Below, piece by piece: positions 2,409-14,746 of a stretch of DNA of 25,694 nucleotides; the first letter of the stretch is position 1; each line of letters begins with the position of its first letter. A model generated the notes under the pieces. It saw nothing but the letters and a program-made list of their open reading frames with translations. It was not told where the DNA came from and did no database searches. The stretch is from a virus, in the IMG/VR virus record IMGVR_UViG_3300020445_000061, positions 1-25,694 of that record; one strand, given 5' to 3'. The translations under genes were made by a program, and so were the position numbers.

Positions 2409-2579
2409 TTACATTCGTAATATCTCCTTACATATCCCTTTCGGTTGTCCATCACTCTCACAAGAAATCAAACAAGCGTAGTAATCATTCAATGCTTCGT
2501 AACTATTTTGATCCTCTGCTACATGTGTCTCAAAATGATTCCAATCTGCTAATTGATTCTTTGATAGTATGTTATGCAT
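2409..2579 (-). CDS. Small hypothetical protein, 56 aa
   Basis: ATG at 2579-2577, TAA at 2411-2409. A GGAG ribosome binding site lies eight bases upstream of the ATG. The protein starts MHNILSKNQLADW and ends with a Cys-containing segment (ACLISCESDG, then GICKEI). The three cysteines are spaced C-X3-C-X9-C, a pattern that could bind a metal, though this is not proven. It is the last gene of the small-gene block and is followed by a terminator. No family is recognised with certainty; it looks like the small early proteins of cyanomyoviruses. Confidence 0.65.
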   Translation of the reverse strand: MHNILSKNQLADWNHFETHVAEDQNSYEALNDYYACLISCESDGQPKGICKEILRM

Positions 2580-2654
2580 AATTTCTACTCCGTAAACATT
2601 TTTCTCATTATAAGGGAGATTTAGTGCATCTTGTCTCCTCCGAAGTTCTGTTAC

Positions 2655-2662
2655 TATTTATG
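2655..2662 (-). promoter_or_regulatory. Possible late promoter CATAAATA
   Basis: Minus-strand CATAAATA differs from the late consensus in its first base only. It lies 76 bases before the ATG of the 56-aa gene, in the only sizeable gap (2580-2711) of the small-gene block. No other feature is seen in that gap. Confidence 0.3.
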
Positions 2663-2711
2663 TGTGCGAATGCCTATAAACATATTTTATTAACAAAAAT
2701 TTATGCCTATA

Positions 2712-2816
2712 TCATCCGAAAGTAGCAACGTTATAATACTTACGTATTGGTTGATACTTTGGTTTAGGTTTTGTCTTGACCTTTAAATAAATCTTTAATA
2801 ATAAATCAGATTTCAT
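2712..2816 (-). CDS. Very small basic hypothetical protein, 34 aa
   Basis: ATG 2816-2814 overlaps the TGA of the preceding gene in an ATGA arrangement; the stop is TGA 2714-2712. The product starts MKSDLLLKIYLKVKTKPK and is strongly Lys-rich, with ten Lys or Arg residues in 34. Support is the coupling to the gene before it and the basic composition; nothing about function can be said. It could also be a chance open frame at the end of the operon. Confidence 0.4.
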   Translation of the reverse strand: MKSDLLLKIYLKVKTKPKPKYQPIRKYYNVATFG

Positions 2817-2974
2817 AGCAAACCTTCACGTGCTTTTTCAATCATAGTCCTAGCACTAGGATTTACATGTGCTAATTTTTCTGCCCAAATCATATCTTCT
2901 AACGGAACAGCAATGCCATGTCTTATGTAATGGCATATCTCCAAGAGACGTATTCTATAAGAAGTACTCATCAT
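2813..2974 (-). CDS. Small hypothetical protein, 53 aa
   Basis: ATG ATG at 2974-2969 lies one base after the stop of the gene before it, and the frame ends at TGA 2815-2813, overlapping the next start. The protein begins MMSTSYRIRLLEICHYIRHG and ends EKAREGLL. It is predicted helical and amphipathic, with no recognised domain. Its tight spacing on both sides is the main evidence that it is real. Confidence 0.6.
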   Translation of the reverse strand: MMSTSYRIRLLEICHYIRHGIAVPLEDMIWAEKLAHVNPSARTMIEKAREGLL

Positions 2975-2975
2975 T

Positions 2976-3137
2976 TTAATATTCAGGTAAATTTAGATCT
3001 TTAACTCCTTTAAATCTCTGATAAGCATCATCGTACTTTTTCTCAGATTTTCTAGATTTCCATAATGCCAAAGCAATGGTATCTAGATCCTCTTCCTCAA
3101 CGAATTCGGTTAATGCTGCTCTCCATGGAATGCTCAT
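2976..3137 (-). CDS. Small hypothetical protein, 53 aa
   Basis: ATG 3137-3135 lies two bases after the stop of the previous gene; stop TAA 2978-2976. The sequence (MSIPWRAALTEFVEEEDLDT, later KSRKSEKKYDDAYQRFKG) has an acidic first half and a basic second half and is likely helical. No family is recognised. Its position within a run of similarly sized, closely spaced genes supports it. Confidence 0.6.
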   Translation of the reverse strand: MSIPWRAALTEFVEEEDLDTIALALWKSRKSEKKYDDAYQRFKGVKDLNLPEY

Positions 3138-3139
3138 AA

Positions 3140-3304
3140 TCAAAATCTCTCAGGTGCTAATGGACGAGTTTCTTTTAATTTTATTAATAACTCTGACATT
3201 TCTTGGACATACTCTTCATCGTGGATGAATTTTAGCGATGTAAATTCAACAGCACTGATTAAGAGATCGTAATCGTAACCGTCTAGTCGTTGTGAATAAT
3301 GCAT
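3140..3304 (-). CDS. Small hypothetical protein, 54 aa
   Basis: ATG 3304-3302, stop TGA 3142-3140, eight bases downstream of the preceding gene's stop. It begins MHYSQRLDGYDYDLLISAVE and ends LAPERF. The composition is acidic with a central helix. It is unrecognised; support comes from clean spacing in the operon and normal codon use. Confidence 0.6.
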   Translation of the reverse strand: MHYSQRLDGYDYDLLISAVEFTSLKFIHDEEYVQEMSELLIKLKETRPLAPERF

Positions 3305-3312
3305 AAATTTCG

Positions 3313-3588
3313 TTACTGAACTTCTTCTGGTAGAGTTGAATGCTTGTCAATTTCGACTGGGAATATAAGAGGATGTAATTCCTCTAACAGTAAATACTCA
3401 CTGTTCTTAGTTAATGTCTCTATGGATATAGATGGTTCGGAGGAAGCAACGGCAACAATTAAAGGATCTTCTTTTTCTTTATCAGTTATATGGTCATAGA
3501 TGAAATCCATACCATTTATACTGTAGACAAGACAGATTCCTTGAGTTTCAACGTACTTGTATTCGCACCTTACCTTGTACACCCACAT
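3313..3588 (-). CDS. Hypothetical protein, 91 aa
   Basis: The frame from ATG 3588 gives MWVYKVRCEYKYVETQGICL and ends HSTLPEEVQ. It has alternating hydrophobic and polar residues that suggest beta-strands (CLVYSINGMDFIYDHI), followed by a more helical acidic half. A GGAA sequence eight bases upstream may serve as ribosome binding site. It follows the 59-aa gene by 12 bases. No known domain is recognised. Confidence 0.65.
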   Translation of the reverse strand: MWVYKVRCEYKYVETQGICLVYSINGMDFIYDHITDKEKEDPLIVAVASSEPSISIETLTKNSEYLLLEELHPLIFPVEIDKHSTLPEEVQ

Positions 3589-3600
3589 GAGTTTTTCCCA

Positions 3601-3780
3601 TTAGTATTCAAACTCCAATTCAAATTCTTCTTGATTCATTAATGTGATATCAAGAACATCCTGAAATTGTTCGGGGGTCTCACACTTTACGTGTAGTTTT
3701 TTCGACTCATTAGAGAAGATGGTAAACTGCCTAGCAGGAATGCTTACAACTACTCGTGTGACATACTCTTCTGTTTGCAT
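3601..3780 (-). CDS. Small acidic hypothetical protein, 59 aa
   Basis: ATG 3780-3778, TAA 3603-3601. The protein starts MQTEEYVTRVVVSIPARQFT, is likely a small beta/alpha fold and ends in an acidic aromatic tail (EEFELEFEY). It is the first gene after a TTGACA-type promoter and so leads the block of six tiny genes. Function is unknown; leading a compact early operon suggests a host-takeover or regulatory role, which is inference. Confidence 0.65.
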   Translation of the reverse strand: MQTEEYVTRVVVSIPARQFTIFSNESKKLHVKCETPEQFQDVLDITLMNQEEFELEFEY

Positions 3781-3801
3781 TGATAAAACGCATTAGAACA
3801 T

Positions 3802-7111: not shown

Positions 7112-8398
7112 TTAAACTCCGAAGGAATCTCTTACAAGTGTAAGGTTTGTTCTCATTTCTGAATCAGCACCAATATGGCGTAACTCAAAGACAATATAAC
7201 GTCCTGATTGGTTTTTGTCAACTTCACCGTCTGCTCCATATATCTCTATCGAGATAATGTTACCAGCTCGTAACTCAAGGTTTGACATACAACTTGCAGT
7301 TAACACCTGACTGGTAAAAATACCATATCTACTAACTGCCTGACCAACCGTTTCTAAGAACATTAACTTGTCCTTTGTGTTGTCTTCATTAGACCCCAAG
7401 AACAAGTCCTTAGTATAAGCCACTGTCATAGTACGTGTTGATACATCTGACAATGCTGCCTTATATAGGTCTGGTAGGTCTTCCTGTTCAGCGACTTTCT
7501 CCCATTTTGCATAATTATCCTTGATATTATACCTATATGTGTCCACTTCACAATCAACTACATCAAAGAAATCTATTTCTCCAGAATAAAATCCTCTATC
7601 AAAATTCTCAAACATATTTAATGTCTTAGGAAAATTAATACCATTTAATCTAAATGCTTCATCCATTCCTCCAGATCCATCTCCAGTACTATATGCTGCA
7701 GCTTCACCACCCTGAACAGCAAGAGAATCAAATGATTGGAAATTATAAGTATCATATCCTTCCCAGAAGAAATATCCAGCACTAATATTAGAACCACCAC
7801 TCTTAGTAGATTTCTGATCCATAGATATAAACTTATTTCTTGTCCATACTAGAGTTTCATATGGTTTTGAATTTGGTGGTATGAATGTTATCTTATTATA
7901 ACTATCCGAAACATTTTCTAGAGCAATGGGTTTTGTTGATTTTAATTCCTTTTCTATAACATCTTTTACTAATTCTTGAGCACTAATAGAAGTATACTTC
8001 TTACCTATTCTAGTAACAGCATTATTCAGAGCATCTTCTCTACACAATTCTAATACAAATCTTTTTATTGTATCAGTCACTTCCTTACTATGAACTTCAT
8101 ATATGAATAAAGGTCCATTTGCAGATTCTTCAGTAAACTCAAAACTAACATCACTAAATTTATCATCAACTATTAATTCAATCTTTTCCATTCCATAAAT
8201 GGATTCAAACAAACTAGAAGTAGTATCCTCTATTTGTAATGTTACCTGAATGAATTTCTGCATTAATCCTTCAGTATACTCAAATTGCTTAATACCTGCT
8301 GCATCAATAGCAACTCTCTCAGCTTTAGCAGCATGAGGAGTTATCCAAGCTTCCCTTATCTCAAAATTTTCAGTTTGTAATGGATCTGTTATATTCAT
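7112..8398 (-). CDS. 27: Baseplate hub protein, gp27-like
   Basis: 428 residues, starting at an ATG that overlaps the previous stop (ATGA). The text is that of a tail-hub beta-barrel protein: ITPHAAKAERVAIDAAGI at the start, FIQVTLQIEDTTSSLFES, a two-barrel core, then 'YAGYFFWEGYDTYNF'-like aromatic strands and a C-terminal domain with LRAGNIISIEIYGADG and GRYIVFELRHIG, a strand pair typical of gp27/gpD hub proteins that handle a 'coming to the end of a barrel' fold. T4 gp27 has 391 residues. The position directly before the gp5-like gene supports a gp27 role: a ring that joins tail tube and spike. The assignment rests mostly on fold-like text and context rather than close identity. Confidence 0.65.
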   Translation of the reverse strand: MNITDPLQTENFEIREAWITPHAAKAERVAIDAAGIKQFEYTEGLMQKFIQVTLQIEDTTSSLFESIYGMEKIELIVDDKFSDVSFEFTEESANGPLFIYEVHSKEVTDTIKRFVLELCREDALNNAVTRIGKKYTSISAQELVKDVIEKELKSTKPIALENVSDSYNKITFIPPNSKPYETLVWTRNKFISMDQKSTKSGGSNISAGYFFWEGYDTYNFQSFDSLAVQGGEAAAYSTGDGSGGMDEAFRLNGINFPKTLNMFENFDRGFYSGEIDFFDVVDCEVDTYRYNIKDNYAKWEKVAEQEDLPDLYKAALSDVSTRTMTVAYTKDLFLGSNEDNTKDKLMFLETVGQAVSRYGIFTSQVLTASCMSNLELRAGNIISIEIYGADGEVDKNQSGRYIVFELRHIGADSEMRTNLTLVRDSFGV

Positions 8399-11364
8399 AA
8401 TCCTGGTTGTAATGCTGCATCAATAGCAGATTGAGACATTTTAGATCCAACTTTGGTTTTCGTCTTCATTTTAGTACCACCAGTTTTTGCCTTTGCAATA
8501 CTTATAGTGTTAGAAACACTATTAAGTTTACTCATAACTTTAACTATTTTATCAGTTGGTGAATCCCCTTTATCTATACCCTTATCTTTCTTATTAGATG
8601 CTGATTTTACATTCTTACCATCAAAATCAAATGCATTACCAGTAAGAGCATCAGCAACACCACCTAATATACCACCAACTCCACGTTCTTTAGCATCCTT
8701 CATTAATCCACCAAGAGGATTAGCAAAATCTCTCTTAGCTCTTAATTTATTTACTCTTTTATTTTTAAGAGCTAGCATACTATCCATAGCTTGAGGTGCA
8801 ACTTGTTTTCCATTGACAGTCATGGTTCTAGTTGCTGTTGGATCATTCCTTAAAGCTTCAATCCTTGCTTGTCTATTTTTATATCTATCTGATTGTTTAT
8901 ATCGTTCCCAACTACTACCATCTCTACCTTCTCTACCTGGTTTACCTCTAAGTCCCTTAGCAATACTTACTGCCATACCAAATGGAGACATTTTAAGTGC
9001 AGCACCAGCTAATTTTGCAGTAGAACCTAATGCCTTTTTACCAATACCAAATGTTTTCTTAAGAACTATACTAGGTAATTGGAATACACTCTTTATAGGT
9101 TTAACAAATTTATTAAGTGATTTATTACCAGTCGGTCCTAAATCCTTTGCACTTATCTGTTTTAATCCAGATTTCTTATTTGTACTCCGTGTTGCTGTTG
9201 GATCATTCTTTAAATTAGTAATCCTTGCTTGTCTAGATTTATATCTATCTGTTTTCTTATAATCTTCATATGAAAGCTTTCCACCTTCTCTATAACCTTT
9301 AATACGTGTATCTTCAATTACATCTTGGATAGAACCTGAGGTATCACTAGTAGATCCCTGAATACTTCTTCTCCGTACCTTCTTCTTACCTAATCCTAAG
9401 AATCCAGTTCTTATTTCTTTAGTTGGGAAAGTAACAGAGTAGTGACGACTACCACCAATTATACCCAAATCTTCAATAGTAGCACCATCTGCTATTAGCT
9501 TATCATACTTAGATACAACCTCTGCTTCTGGTACAATATTTTCACCTTTTTTTGAAATAGGTTTCTTAACTGGACTCTCACTGTCTTTCTTTGGAGTTTG
9601 AGTAGGAGGTTTTGTTGGTGGATCTTTTTGTTCTTTCTGTTCCTTTTCTTGTTTCTGAACTTCTTTTTGAGCAGTATCTAAAGCTTGTTCATCTTCTTTA
9701 AGATCTTCATCCTTCTCTTCATTTCCTTGTAACTTTTCAATATCATCAGCTTGTTCTTCAAAGAAAGGTCTTAAACCTTTTATCATTAATGGCATTGCCA
9801 TTACATACAATGAACTTAATATTCCTGCTCCTGCTTTCTTCTCAAAGTCACTCTTTTCTCCCTTCTTATATCTTCCATCATCCGTATTCTCAGAACCTGG
9901 AGAATCTGGTTCATCTTCTATTCCCTTTTCAGCTTGTTGTGCCCCTAACTTAGTATCTAATTTTTTATCAATACTCTTTCTTAATTTAAATCTATCTTTT
10001 TGAACTTTAAAAAGACCAAATAATGCCTTTCTAGCTTCTCCAATATTCTTTGCAATATTATGGAGACCTGATTTACCTCCCTTTCCTTTCTTTGGAATAG
10101 CACTACCAAATCCTTTACCACCCTTTACTGGACCTTTACCTCTAGTTTTCTTCCTCTTCTTCTTACCATCAGGAGTAGGAATAGCACTTTGTCCTGCAGA
10201 ACTACCTGTTGGAATTACCTCAGGATTTATTACTCCTCTAGCTTCCTGTTCATCTTGCTCTATAGATTGATCACGGGACTTCATAAGACCAGTAACATCA
10301 TCATACCATGGTGTCTTATCTTTAGGGAAAGGTATACTAGGATCTCTAGCAATATCCTTTCTAAGAATATCAATCTTTCTGTCTAGTAATACATCTTTAC
10401 GGTTATCATCGACCTCACCTTCCCAGTCATCGTCACTACTACCCTTAATATTAGTAGATGCCATAGGAGATATGGCTGCTTGTGCTTTATCTAACCTTGC
10501 CAGCTTTTCCTTTTGGGTGCCTTTTCCGAACTTTGGATTTGCCTTAATAAATGCTCTTGCTCTATCTAATTCTTTCTGATCTTTTGGATTCCTTAAAGAT
10601 GTAACTTCAGTATTATCATTAATTTTCACACCATTCTTGTCATATCCAGGATCACTTGATCCCATAGTCAATCTATCTGTGAATGTACCATCCCATTCAC
10701 CTATAGCTCTACCTGCACGTTTAGCACCACGAAGTCCACGTTTAGCACCAATACGTAGTTGTTGTTTTAATATATCCTTCCGTGATTTACCAGGAGGAAG
10801 TCCTGCTCCTGGAAAACGTGATAATGCTCCACCTGGTGATGGAACTATTGCTCCACCTTTAACGACAGGAGTTGATGGTGCTTGAGTTACAAGAGCACCT
10901 GCTTTTTCTACTGCTGCCTTTTTCTTTAATTTCTTTGAAGTTGCTTTAACATCAATAGCTTTAGGGGGAGGACTTCCAGTAATCTCTGCTACTTCTTTAA
11001 GCAGATCATCCATTTCCCTCAGTGCTTTAGCATCTGATTCAGCAACTTTCTTTAAATTTTGACGTAATCTTTCAGCAATTTTAAGTGATTTCTTTGGTGC
11101 ACCCGAAGTAACATCAATAGCACCTCTCTTCATATCTAATGATGCTTTAGGGAGTGTCACTGGTTCTGGATTTGCATCCATCAACTTCTTCAATTCACTA
11201 TTACTTAACTTCTTATATGGTGTACCAAACCCATCAGCACCATAATCCATTGCCTTAACATGGGTTTCTAATTTCTGCCACTCTTTATCCTTACCGATAC
11301 TTCTATAATACTCGGCTTTATCCAATACGGATCTTCTTATTTTCATCCATGCCTTATCTGCCAT
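8395..11364 (-). CDS. Large Lys-rich tail protein, tape-measure candidate
   Basis: 989 residues, very rich in Lys, Gly, Ser and Asp, with long low-complexity and disordered stretches, a Lys/Glu/Gln coiled-coil-like region (EDEQALDTAQKEVQKQEKEQ) around residue 570 and one hydrophobic segment (SLYVMAMPLMIKGL, near 520). Two copies of a 28-residue motif, D-R-Y-K-x-R-Q-A-R-I-x-x-L-x-N-D-P-T-A-T-R, occur at about 698-725 and 818-845. A short collagen-like run (GKPGREGRDG) precedes the second copy. It lies between the smaller tape-measure-like protein and the gp27-like hub. At the usual rule of about 0.15 nm of tail per residue, 989 residues would span about 148 nm. Tail function is inferred from context; no family is firmly recognised. 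Confidence 0.7.
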   Translation of the reverse strand: MADKAWMKIRRSVLDKAEYYRSIGKDKEWQKLETHVKAMDYGADGFGTPYKKLSNSELKKLMDANPEPVTLPKASLDMKRGAIDVTSGAPKKSLKIAERLRQNLKKVAESDAKALREMDDLLKEVAEITGSPPPKAIDVKATSKKLKKKAAVEKAGALVTQAPSTPVVKGGAIVPSPGGALSRFPGAGLPPGKSRKDILKQQLRIGAKRGLRGAKRAGRAIGEWDGTFTDRLTMGSSDPGYDKNGVKINDNTEVTSLRNPKDQKELDRARAFIKANPKFGKGTQKEKLARLDKAQAAISPMASTNIKGSSDDDWEGEVDDNRKDVLLDRKIDILRKDIARDPSIPFPKDKTPWYDDVTGLMKSRDQSIEQDEQEARGVINPEVIPTGSSAGQSAIPTPDGKKKRKKTRGKGPVKGGKGFGSAIPKKGKGGKSGLHNIAKNIGEARKALFGLFKVQKDRFKLRKSIDKKLDTKLGAQQAEKGIEDEPDSPGSENTDDGRYKKGEKSDFEKKAGAGILSSLYVMAMPLMIKGLRPFFEEQADDIEKLQGNEEKDEDLKEDEQALDTAQKEVQKQEKEQKEQKDPPTKPPTQTPKKDSESPVKKPISKKGENIVPEAEVVSKYDKLIADGATIEDLGIIGGSRHYSVTFPTKEIRTGFLGLGKKKVRRRSIQGSTSDTSGSIQDVIEDTRIKGYREGGKLSYEDYKKTDRYKSRQARITNLKNDPTATRSTNKKSGLKQISAKDLGPTGNKSLNKFVKPIKSVFQLPSIVLKKTFGIGKKALGSTAKLAGAALKMSPFGMAVSIAKGLRGKPGREGRDGSSWERYKQSDRYKNRQARIEALRNDPTATRTMTVNGKQVAPQAMDSMLALKNKRVNKLRAKRDFANPLGGLMKDAKERGVGGILGGVADALTGNAFDFDGKNVKSASNKKDKGIDKGDSPTDKIVKVMSKLNSVSNTISIAKAKTGGTKMKTKTKVGSKMSQSAIDAALQPGL
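8828..8913 (-). repeat. Internal direct repeat, copy B (in 989-aa tail protein)
   Basis: Encodes residues about 818-845 (SSWERYKQSDRYKNRQARI and following). It is nearly identical in DNA to copy A exactly 360 bases away; for example, gttgctgttggatcatt and atccttgcttgtcta recur on the plus strand at the same offset. Confidence 0.8.
9188..9273 (-). repeat. Internal direct repeat, copy A (in 989-aa tail protein)
   Basis: Encodes residues about 698-725 (SYEDYKKTDRYKSRQARI and following). Paired with copy B at 8828-8913; the two copies share about 20 of 28 residues, and DNA similarity includes several runs of ten or more identical bases. Confidence 0.8.
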
Positions 11365-11366
11365 AG

Positions 11367-13082
11367 TTAATTACCTTCTGTCTTACGACCCCATACGGCA
11401 AAAGAACTTGATTTAGTTGCAGCAGAACTTCCACCAACTGGAAATGGTACTACTTGTGGTTCTGATACTTGAGCAATCATAACTGTATTAGCCAATGATG
11501 GAAGTATATCTTCGTAATTTGGTTCAGGTTCTGGATCTACCATATTTAGTTCTTTCTTAGCAGCTGCAATTCTATCTTCAATTGGATTTTCATAATCATA
11601 ATTCATACGATGAATACTACTATCTAATCCCCTCATAGTACTTGCAACAGTACCTTGTTTAGTCCAAGTTTCCCTGTTATGACTAGCAACTTCAACACCC
11701 TTTACATGTGCACTTGCACTAAAACTTCGTCCAGGTTTCCAAGTGAATTGTGCTCCAACAGCATCTCTATCTGTAACTTCAGGTTGAACTATTGCCTCAC
11801 TAGTATCATCACCACTCTCCATATCTTTCTTATTTTCCTTTGCTACATCTTCAACTGCTGATTCAACAACATCTGCTATTAATGGTGCTACAAACCAACC
11901 CAACCTACTCTTAGGAACAATATACTCGTCCTCTTTACCTTCACCCACCATAATCAATTGAGGTTTCTTAATCTGAGCTCCTTCTGCTGCACCTTCTGCT
12001 TTTCCTTTACCTATAGTAACATCATATAATAATCCACCTAAAGCATCACCAATCATACCACCAGCAATAGCACCTAAAGTACCTCCTACTGCTGTTCCTA
12101 AGAATGGAATAACAGATCCAGCAGCAGCTGCTGCAACTCCACCTGCCCAAGCACCAATACCTGCACCCGTTGCCATGAATACTGCTTTGGCTACAGGTTC
12201 TTTAAAAACAAAGATATTAATAAGTGCATCAGCAATAGCACCAATAAATGGTATTCTCTTTAATAACTTTCCTGGACCTGCTTTATAAAATAATTTAAAC
12301 TGCTTAAGAAGTTGTTTTGTACCAGTTTTAGCTATCTTCTTACTACCTACTTCTGCTATTTCTTTAGTTCCACTCTGTATTAATTTCTTTGCACCACTTT
12401 CAGTTCCACTCTTTAATAACTTAGTACTTGCTGTTTCAGCACCCGACTGAAGTAACTTTTGAGCAGGTTTTTTAGTGAAAGCCGATTTTGCTTTTTTCGC
12501 TATAGCATTAAATGCCTTTCCAGGTAAACTCTTAATAAATCTACTAGCTTGTCTGAAAGGTCTAAATATAGTTCTCCTAAACCGTTTACCAATTGTTCTC
12601 CATTTTCTAAGTAAACGTCTAAGTCGTCTAATTGCTTTTATACCACGTTTACCAATTAATCTCTTTAAACCACGTTTTATCTTAAGCCACGCCTTTCCAA
12701 GTAGTTTCCTAAATAACCGATTTAACCAAGTACCACCTTTTGGATCTTCTAATTCCTTCTTCTTAGCCCATCTCCTTCTCATCTCAGGTGTTCCAGGAAC
12801 AACCTTTTTAGATTTCATAATACCGAGATTACCAAATCTAGAACGCTCATACGTAAGTTCTAATTTAGTTTGTTTCCAAAGTAATATTGCAGTATCTCTT
12901 AACTTCTTTGACTCTTTCTGAACAGAATTTATATCTCCACCAGATCCTTCACCATCACCATCATCACTATCTCCCTTTGGCTTATCTGGATGTGCACCAA
13001 AAACAGCCGTCTTTGCATTATACAGTGATAACACAAGATCGTTATAATTCCTTGTTCCTAATTTTTTAGTTTTTACAGGCAT
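11367..13082 (-). CDS. Tape-measure-like tail protein
   Basis: 571 residues. The N-terminal third is basic (many RRLRRLLRKW-like runs around 130-190). It is followed by an amphipathic repeat region (LLQSGAETASTKLLKSGTES, with the phrase 'K.L..SGT' repeated about four times between 205 and 260) and a long Gly/Ala hydrophobic segment (about 295-355, GAGIGAWAGGVAAAAAGSV). Around residue 380 the phrase IMVGEGKEDEYIVPKSR resembles the 'VGE.GPE.vvP' box common near the end of tape-measure proteins. The size is close to T4 gp29 (590 aa), and it directly follows gp26 and its -1 extension, the classical chaperone/tape-measure order. TAAATG joins it to that extension. It may be the gp29 counterpart; which of the two large proteins measures the tail is open. 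Confidence 0.65.
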   Translation of the reverse strand: MPVKTKKLGTRNYNDLVLSLYNAKTAVFGAHPDKPKGDSDDGDGEGSGGDINSVQKESKKLRDTAILLWKQTKLELTYERSRFGNLGIMKSKKVVPGTPEMRRRWAKKKELEDPKGGTWLNRLFRKLLGKAWLKIKRGLKRLIGKRGIKAIRRLRRLLRKWRTIGKRFRRTIFRPFRQASRFIKSLPGKAFNAIAKKAKSAFTKKPAQKLLQSGAETASTKLLKSGTESGAKKLIQSGTKEIAEVGSKKIAKTGTKQLLKQFKLFYKAGPGKLLKRIPFIGAIADALINIFVFKEPVAKAVFMATGAGIGAWAGGVAAAAAGSVIPFLGTAVGGTLGAIAGGMIGDALGGLLYDVTIGKGKAEGAAEGAQIKKPQLIMVGEGKEDEYIVPKSRLGWFVAPLIADVVESAVEDVAKENKKDMESGDDTSEAIVQPEVTDRDAVGAQFTWKPGRSFSASAHVKGVEVASHNRETWTKQGTVASTMRGLDSSIHRMNYDYENPIEDRIAAAKKELNMVDPEPEPNYEDILPSLANTVMIAQVSEPQVVPFPVGGSSAATKSSSFAVWGRKTEGN

Positions 13083-13274
13083 TTAAGATCTTCTCTTCTG
13101 TTCTTCAATTTTCTTCTTCTCCTCTTCCAAGTGTTGTTTTAACAATTCAACGTATACATCCCTTTCCCATGGGATCATATTATTAAGATCGTCAAAACCA
13201 TACTTATGATGTTGCATCATACCAAAGTTGATCCTTATATGAGATTCAAGTGAGGTATGGAAGAGGGCTATATG
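13083..13274 (-). CDS. -1 frame extension of gp26 (tail assembly chaperone T-like domain)
   Basis: This open stretch in the -1 frame relative to gp26 starts at the slippery heptamer and ends at TAA 13085-13083, immediately before the ATG of the tape-measure-like gene. After a -1 slip it adds 63 residues (HIALFHTSLESH at its start, KYGFDDLNNMIPWERDVYVE in the middle, then a Lys/Glu helix ending KRRS), giving a 295-residue gp26 fusion. The phrase 'YGf..l..m.PWER..Y...L' resembles the frameshifted half of lambda-type tail assembly chaperones. A stand-alone protein of 45 residues could instead start at ATG 13220, but its ribosome binding site (GGAT, 10 bases away) is weak. Confidence 0.65.
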   Translation of the reverse strand, partial: HIALFHTSLESHIRINFGMMQHHKYGFDDLNNMIPWERDVYVELLKQHLEEEKKKIEEQKRRS

Positions 13275-13969
13275 AAAAAATTGGCTAATCCCTCAATTGT
13301 GTGCGAACTTTCGACTTTAGTATTGGGATTTCTTATTTTGATAGTATGCTTTAATGATGGCATGGTTTCAAAGAATTCCTGAATTTTAGCAAATTGCTTA
13401 CTACTCATTCCTTCAACAAATTCCATAAATTCATCTTCTGTTGTAGTAGATGAATCCCACACATCTTCTTCATTGTAAATCTTTTTAATAGATTTAGAAA
13501 CTAATTTAAAGGTATCCTCAACAGTTTCTTCTTGTTGAGCAAGAGAATCTATATTTGGATATTTCATTTCAACCCAAAGATCATCACTAACTTGTATTTT
13601 ATTAGTATGACCCTTAGTAAATGAAACTTTAATCTTATCTATTGGTATTTGTGTAGTTACTTCAGTTTTATCATCGTCAGGACATAACACCCTAACATCA
13701 ATACTTTCACCAATAGATTTACCTCTAATATTTAAAAATAAATACTCAACATCAAAAGTAGCAAGATTATCAGGATCAATTCCCTTAGTGAGAACACATG
13801 CTCTTATCAAATCCTTCATTGCCTGAGCAATTTGGACATCATCCTCAGATTCTAATGCTAATAGAAGAACTTTCTCTTCCTTAACCAAGAATGGTCTATA
13901 TTTAACTTTCTTTTTAGTTGATGGTATAGTCAACTCATAAGTCGGGGTACTTAACGAAGGTAATGCCAT
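13268..13969 (-). CDS. 26: gp26-like baseplate hub / tail assembly chaperone protein
   Basis: 233 residues, matching the T4 gp26 baseplate hub family (T4: 208 aa). The text is MALPSLSTPTYELTIPSTKK, then YRPFLVKEEKVLLLALES, DLIRACV, the conserved VEYLFLNIRGKSIGE near residue 75-90, and a C-terminal half with FVEGMSSKQFAKIQEFFETMP and PSLKHTIKI. In many tailed phages the protein in this position is the tail assembly chaperone that keeps the tape measure soluble, and several features here fit that role: it lies directly upstream of a tape-measure-like gene and ends in a -1 slippery sequence. The stop TAG is at 13270-13268. No strong promoter is visible in the 33 bases to the upstream gene. Confidence 0.85.
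   Translation of the reverse strand: MALPSLSTPTYELTIPSTKKKVKYRPFLVKEEKVLLLALESEDDVQIAQAMKDLIRACVLTKGIDPDNLATFDVEYLFLNIRGKSIGESIDVRVLCPDDDKTEVTTQIPIDKIKVSFTKGHTNKIQVSDDLWVEMKYPNIDSLAQQEETVEDTFKLVSKSIKKIYNEEDVWDSSTTTEDEFMEFVEGMSSKQFAKIQEFFETMPSLKHTIKIRNPNTKVESSHTIEGLANFFI
13274..13280 (-). promoter_or_regulatory. Programmed -1 ribosomal frameshift site T_TTT_TTC
   Basis: In gp26 codons 230-232 (AAT TTT TTC) the heptamer T TTT TTC fits the X_XXY_YYZ rule exactly. Both tRNAs re-pair with TTT TTT after a -1 slip, two codons before the in-frame TAG. The new frame is open for 63 codons up to the next gene. Confidence 0.7.
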
Positions 13970-14002: not shown

Positions 14003-14746
14003 CTAAGCGAAACCTGCTCCAATGGATGAAGGAATATCGTTCATACCTAAATTTCCATAAATCTTTTTCTGAGTTCCTTCATTCTGTTTAGAAGCTGCCA
14101 CAAACTGTGCAACACTTTCCTCTCTTAGATACTCATAATAAAATGCTGCTTGAAATCTAACTGGTTGATTAGGACCATTACTAAATGTCATAGCAGATAA
14201 TGTATAAGGAAATGCATTCTTCAATACATAACTTGAAACTACATTAACTGGTTCTACTGTATTATCATTTGTCTCTATCTTTTGAATAATTAAATCTGCA
14301 GTATAATTATCGTAATAATTAGTCCTTATATAATCATTAGGTTTCTTTACCTCCTCTGTATGTCCAAAAACATACTCACCCCATCTTTGCATTACTTTAT
14401 ATGGAGTGTGCTTATGGTCAAGAATAAAACTTATATTTGCTTCACTAAATGTCTTAGTGTGTGCATACTTTAAATTAATTCCAGGTAGAAATCCTTTCAA
14501 CTCATCAGTAGCAACTGTGAACCCAGGAACATTTACTTCATCTGCTAACCAACTAGTTAATGATGCATTTGCTACATTACCTATACCAATTTCTTGATCA
14601 AAAACTGGTCCTGGATTATCTACTCCTTTATAGAGTACATTATCTCTAAATTTATCATTAGGTGGCAAAAATGATATTTGATACCTATTTGAGTTAGCAA
14701 TCCCATAGTCACCTACTATATTCTTTCTAATATCGTCGATTTTCAT
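14003..14746 (-). CDS. 54: Tail-tube-fold protein, probable gp54-like tube initiator
   Basis: 247 residues. The layout matches tube-initiator proteins of the T4 gp54 type: an N-terminal NSNRYQISFLPP strand, VNVPGFTVATDELKGF, LPGINLKYAHTKTF, then ISFILDHKHTPYKVMQRWGEYVFG, which recalls 'ISFRMD.....AMQDWV' in T4 gp54, and a final strand VRFQAAFYYEYLREES. It is shorter than T4 gp54 (320 aa) and longer than the tube protein gp19 (163 aa). It heads the minus-strand late operon, 23 bases downstream of a TATAAATA late promoter. A different tail-tube paralogue is the alternative. In the virion it would seat the first tube ring on the baseplate next to gp48. Confidence 0.6.
   Translation of the reverse strand: MKIDDIRKNIVGDYGIANSNRYQISFLPPNDKFRDNVLYKGVDNPGPVFDQEIGIGNVANASLTSWLADEVNVPGFTVATDELKGFLPGINLKYAHTKTFSEANISFILDHKHTPYKVMQRWGEYVFGHTEEVKKPNDYIRTNYYDNYTADLIIQKIETNDNTVEPVNVVSSYVLKNAFPYTLSAMTFSNGPNQPVRFQAAFYYEYLREESVAQFVAASKQNEGTQKKIYGNLGMNDIPSSIGAGFA

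Follow-up and report, generated by a model that had tools for sequence, protein, structure and literature searches.

A conserved slippery site at the end of gp26 and a gp51-like -1 frame extension in a probable T4-like tail assembly chaperone gene

Introduction

A 2016 review of recoding (PMC5009743) describes G-T frameshifting as a feature conserved widely among long-tailed phages, "except T4". As represented in PMC10885494, Vladimirov et al. 2022 described T4-like phages that have a short gene together with a longer fusion gene and that do without frameshifting, while, as cited by PMC12846349, the same study reported that TAC-N genes of T4-like phages carry poly-T slip signals. A further observation concerns the cyanophages, whose gp51 is only about 20% as long as other gp51 proteins, the first ~200 residues being missing (Sullivan et al. 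2010, PMC3037559).

Because Vladimirov et al. 2022, in the accounts given by PMC10885494 and PMC12846349, covers this kind of arrangement, we regard it as known: the principle of a frameshifted T4-like chaperone is, by these accounts, already published, and the marine T4-like phage analyzed here is a further example. The initial annotation of the locus had presented the link between gp26 and the general chaperone family as something new, a claim to novelty that we withdraw in view of the same accounts. The sequence studied, referred to as the window, is the whole stretch of 25,694 nucleotides of IMG/VR record IMGVR_UViG_3300020445_000061; its relevant features are collected in Table 1.

Table 1. 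Features of the window around the 3' end of gp26
Feature	Position	Strand	Basis
gp26, putative short form of the tail assembly chaperone, 233 aa	13268..13969	-	PF12322 E 4.6e-69; phrog_150 E 2.6e-73
Slippery heptamer T_TTT_TTC	13274..13280	-	sequence and conservation
-1 frame extension, 63 codons plus TAA	13083..13274	-	phrog_634 E 6.5e-26; dN/dS 0.156, 0.082
GAGGGA, Shine-Dalgarno-like putative stimulator, ending 8 nt before the heptamer	13289..13294	-	family-wide anti-Shine-Dalgarno pairing peak
Predicted downstream stem-loop, weak in the window phage	13218..13259	-	fold of the window; hairpin excess in the family
Tail tube protein gene, upstream of gp26	14003..14746	-	phrog_45 E 1.2e-33
571-aa gene, possible tape measure protein	11367..13082	-	weak PHROGs tape measure hits; hydrophobic Ala/Gly-rich stretch
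989-aa gene	8395..11364	-	no PHROGs family match

Results

The slip site in the window

The assignment of gp26 to PF12322 is secure (232.9 bits, with a curated cut-off of 24.5). On the minus strand, the 3' end of the gene reads GCC AAT TTT TTC ATA TAG, and thus contains T_TTT_TTC in the correct X_XXY_YYZ phase, with one codon separating the heptamer from the gp26 stop. The initial annotation had named this heptamer without specifying a strand; it is indeed present, at 13280-13274 on the minus strand. Since the zero-frame codons are TTT and TTC, both tRNA-Phe could re-pair after a -1 slip. From there, 63 codons follow in the -1 frame without a stop (13274-13086) before TAA closes it (13085-13083), and the ATG of the next open reading frame lies at 13082, as had been annotated; the length proposed for a fusion, 295 residues, was likewise reproduced (232 + 63).

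A single site of this type proves nothing, since TTTTTTC is not rare in the AT-rich window (four occurrences, with 10.6 expected from shuffled sequences); the proof must come from conservation.

Conservation of the heptamer

Combining IMG/VR relatives with named phages resulted in a set of 32 lineages that are less than 75% identical to one another, in 28 of which gp26 ends in Phe-Phe. These two codons are written as T_TTT_TTC in 25 of the 28 lineages and as T_TTT_TTT in the other three, while Phe-Phe pairs elsewhere in the same sequences take the form T+TTT TTC in only 2 of 168 cases. Consistent with this, nearly all of 80 IMG/VR relatives (gp26 identity 47-93%) show the heptamer in the corresponding position ahead of the stop and encode a homologous -1 peptide. 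The pattern extends to the Kyanoviridae, to Aeromonas phage PX29 (Straboviridae), and to phages of Stenotrophomonas, Sinorhizobium, Pseudomonas and Nitratidesulfovibrio. The alignment of relatives that had been suggested as a check on the initial annotation therefore shows that both the heptamer and the open -1 frame are kept (25 of 28 lineages and 0 stops in 53 loci, respectively).

T_TTT_TTT replaces T_TTT_TTC in lineages L059, L060, L094 and L095. In L059/L060 and in L094, the zero-frame stop is located further downstream.

Putative stimulators around the slip site

In the family as well as in the window, pairing with the anti-Shine-Dalgarno sequence peaks in 8-nt windows that start 15-17 nt before the heptamer, with a mean near -5.5 kcal/mol over a background of +0.24 (standard deviation 2.1). 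The peak stems from a conserved GAGGGA/GAAGGA, an element that is to be read with the caveat that the Glu-Gly it encodes is conserved in the protein too. Its spacing is close to that of the stimulator in E. coli dnaX. The GAGGG of this element could also pair with CCCUC just past the gp26 stop, so that the slip site would lie between the two arms (13263-13294, minus strand).

Downstream of the heptamer, a hairpin with z < -2 was predicted in 13 of 21 lineages, compared with 12 of 168 control windows (p 9e-6, calculated from related sequences that are not fully independent). In the window phage, the hairpin predicted right after the heptamer is weak (z +0.7), and a longer fold reaches z -2.1. 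A search of Rfam returned no match.

The extension and T4 gp51

The extension matches phrog_634, "baseplate hub assembly catalyst", which is the T4 gp51 family (E 6.5e-26). T4 gp26 and T4 gp51 are both members of PF12322, and T4 gp51 matches phrog_150 over residues 3-248 and phrog_634 over residues 147-246. Furthermore, in a single BLASTP comparison, the alignment between the virtual 295-residue fusion and T4 gp51 was collinear and ran across the slip junction (E 3e-5). An hhalign comparison of the gp26 alignment with the single sequence of T4 gp51 gave a probability of 4% and was uninformative; the family profiles are decisive instead. As judged from these sequence matches, T4 gp51 consists of a gp26-like domain that continues in frame into a homolog of the extension. 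Since this in-frame fusion is collinear with the virtual one, T4 appears to use two genes for what is here one gene with a slip.

Gene counts agree with this: among the sampled phages, each of the 17 that have the -1 arrangement has a single PF12322 gene, and two were found in T4 and in the straboviral Klebsiella phage CP-p-KP-21068. The T4 layout is also present in 44RR and in an Acinetobacter phage. In a tree with a midpoint root and long branches, the T-even gp26 proteins form one clade and the T-even gp51 proteins another, which is compatible with a single duplication in either direction. Klebsiella phage CP-p-KP-21068 has its two gp26-family genes in tandem (2501-3792), the long form first and the short form overlapping it, an order unlike that of the divergent pair in T4.

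Coding nature of the -1 frame

In the -1 frame, dN/dS is 0.156 over codons 3-20 and 0.082 over codons 21-48 (217 pairs), and none of 53 loci has a stop; in the other two frames, the ratios exceed 1.5 and all 53 loci have stops. Selection on the -1 peptide is thus purifying from the slip site onward. Codons 3-20 lie mostly upstream of the first ATG, and four lineages (L067, L088, L095 and L100) have no ATG, GTG or TTG at all within the first 24 codons. A separate internal start therefore fails to explain why codons 3-20 are conserved. Over the same codons, pS is also lower (0.42 versus 0.60), as would be expected if the RNA were constrained as well. The initial annotation had named, as an outcome that would speak against it, a heptamer that is not kept beside an extension that always has its own start; the heptamer proved to be conserved, and several lineages have no start codon within the first ~24 codons of the -1 frame.

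Internal initiation might nevertheless operate beside frameshifting, the slip giving rise to the long form and an internal start to a short C-terminal piece. In many lineages, an ATG occurs at codon 20-21 of the -1 frame, and an internal in-frame product, 26', is annotated for T4 gene 26. We consider such a dual route unlikely, as this ATG is missing in the four lineages named above, and the Met or Leu found at its position may be merely a conserved hydrophobic residue.

Discussion

The computations show a conserved slip site, a -1 frame that is protein-coding, and homology between the fusion and T4 gp51; from these we infer that ribosomes slip here, that they do so at a low rate, and that the product is a chaperone: gp26 and the -1 extension very probably represent the short and long forms of one G/GT-type tail assembly chaperone, produced by -1 frameshifting. 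Most ribosomes would stop at the gp26 TAG and release the 233-residue short form. A minority, aided by the upstream GAGGGA, would slip back one base at U_UUU_UUC, which the re-pairing of tRNA-Phe in both the P and A sites would permit, and would read 63 codons more to complete the 295-residue long form. If the parallel with lambda gpG/gpGT holds, the N-terminal part common to both forms would coat the tape measure protein, whereas the extension, being rare, would bring in tail tube subunits, and neither form would remain in the virion.

The G/GT-type chaperone reading had been put forward by the initial annotation; the position of the gene, directly after the tail tube gene, and the in-frame fusion in T4 gp51 agree with it, although the homology shown for the extension is to T4 gp51, with lambda gpT as an analogy. 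Similarly, the gene after gp26 had been called tape-measure-like, a label that holds weakly: PHROGs gave weak hits, but tblastn of the 571-aa gene against 50,697 phage records found no relative. The tape measure gene may be this gene or the 989-aa gene. A confident AlphaFold model of gp26 (pLDDT 86.5) was used to search the PDB structures, where chains of the HK97 chaperone 2ob9 took the suggestive ranks 3-4, but with an E of 1.3, which is not significant; a comparison of the gp26 profile with the sequences of solved structures found nothing.

Were the fusion made, it could still belong to the hub as a structural component and not act as a chaperone, in line with the name "baseplate hub subunit", and some T4 genetic studies do place gp26 in the hub (PMC3004832). 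The same source, however, counts gp26 and gp51 among the chaperones of hub assembly, with gp51 absent from the particle, and more recent literature regards the two as chaperones of tail assembly (PMC10885494), so that a structural role appears improbable.

It is more improbable still that no fusion is made and that the extension stands as a small gene of its own ("gp51, baseplate hub assembly catalyst"), whose translation would begin by reinitiation or at a start codon within it. Most GenBank records annotate the extension in this manner, and the window does contain an ATG (13220) that is preceded by AAGGA at a distance of 11 nt and could give rise to a short separate protein. Yet purifying selection already acts on about 18 codons of the -1 frame that precede the usual first ATG, several lineages lack a start there, and the annotated starts differ between records; moreover, a separate gene leaves both the codon choice in T_TTT_TTC and the in-frame fusion of T4 gp51 unexplained. 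Finally, a poly-T run that happens to precede a stop and a coincidentally open frame has virtually no chance of being the explanation, for although TTTTTTC is not rare in the window, the heptamer and the open frame are conserved over dozens of lineages, and a chance origin of the slip site is accordingly rejected.

The Ackermannviridae (L086, L090-L092 and L122-L139) have a single gp26-family gene with a homologous -1 extension. Their sites contain no X_XXY_YYZ heptamer and read GAA/GAG ATT TTC ATT TAA or similar, and in most of them the stop lies in an overlap, TAATG in some and TAATT in others. We tentatively suggest, as a possibility that falls somewhat short of an even chance, that a single slippery gene is ancestral in the wider T4-like phages, that the T-evens hard-wired the two forms by duplication, and that the Ackermannviridae use a third way, for which stop-start reinitiation and a non-canonical slip would be candidates. 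If so, this phage group would have three separate means of setting one chaperone ratio.

Under the frameshift reading, hundreds of cyanophage annotations of gp26 plus a separate short gp51 would become one frameshifted gene, and the ~200 residues found to be missing from cyanophage gp51 in 2010 (PMC3037559) would be accounted for. The cultured phages P-RSM4, S-PM2 and Syn33 would offer a frameshift-controlled chaperone ratio that can be compared with the two-gene version of T4.

Comparison with known systems

As in lambda gpG/gpGT, a short form would be combined with a presumably rare -1 extension near the end of the gene, with a tail tube gene before it and a long gene, possibly a tail gene, after it. 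The heptamer, in contrast, is T_TTT_TTC, and the gene belongs to PF12322; the likeness to lambda is drawn from the layout. With T4 gp26/gp51, the locus shares the PF12322 family and an extension homologous to the C-terminus of gp51, but T4 has two divergently transcribed genes, one of which carries the extension in frame, where the window has one gene and a putative slip.

The cyanophage "short gp51", as annotated in P-RSM4, S-PM2 and S-RSM4 (PMC3037559), has the same arrangement and a homologous extension. There it is annotated as a stand-alone gene without ~200 N-terminal residues, whereas in the frameshift reading the missing part is gp26. The frameshift described for the Vandenendeviridae and Andersonviridae (PMC12846349) likewise combines a poly-T slip signal near the end of TAC-N with a conserved open -1 frame, and its downstream open reading frame is misannotated as a separate gene, as it is here. 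In those phages, which belong to other families, the motif is GTTTTT; the likeness is drawn from the arrangement.
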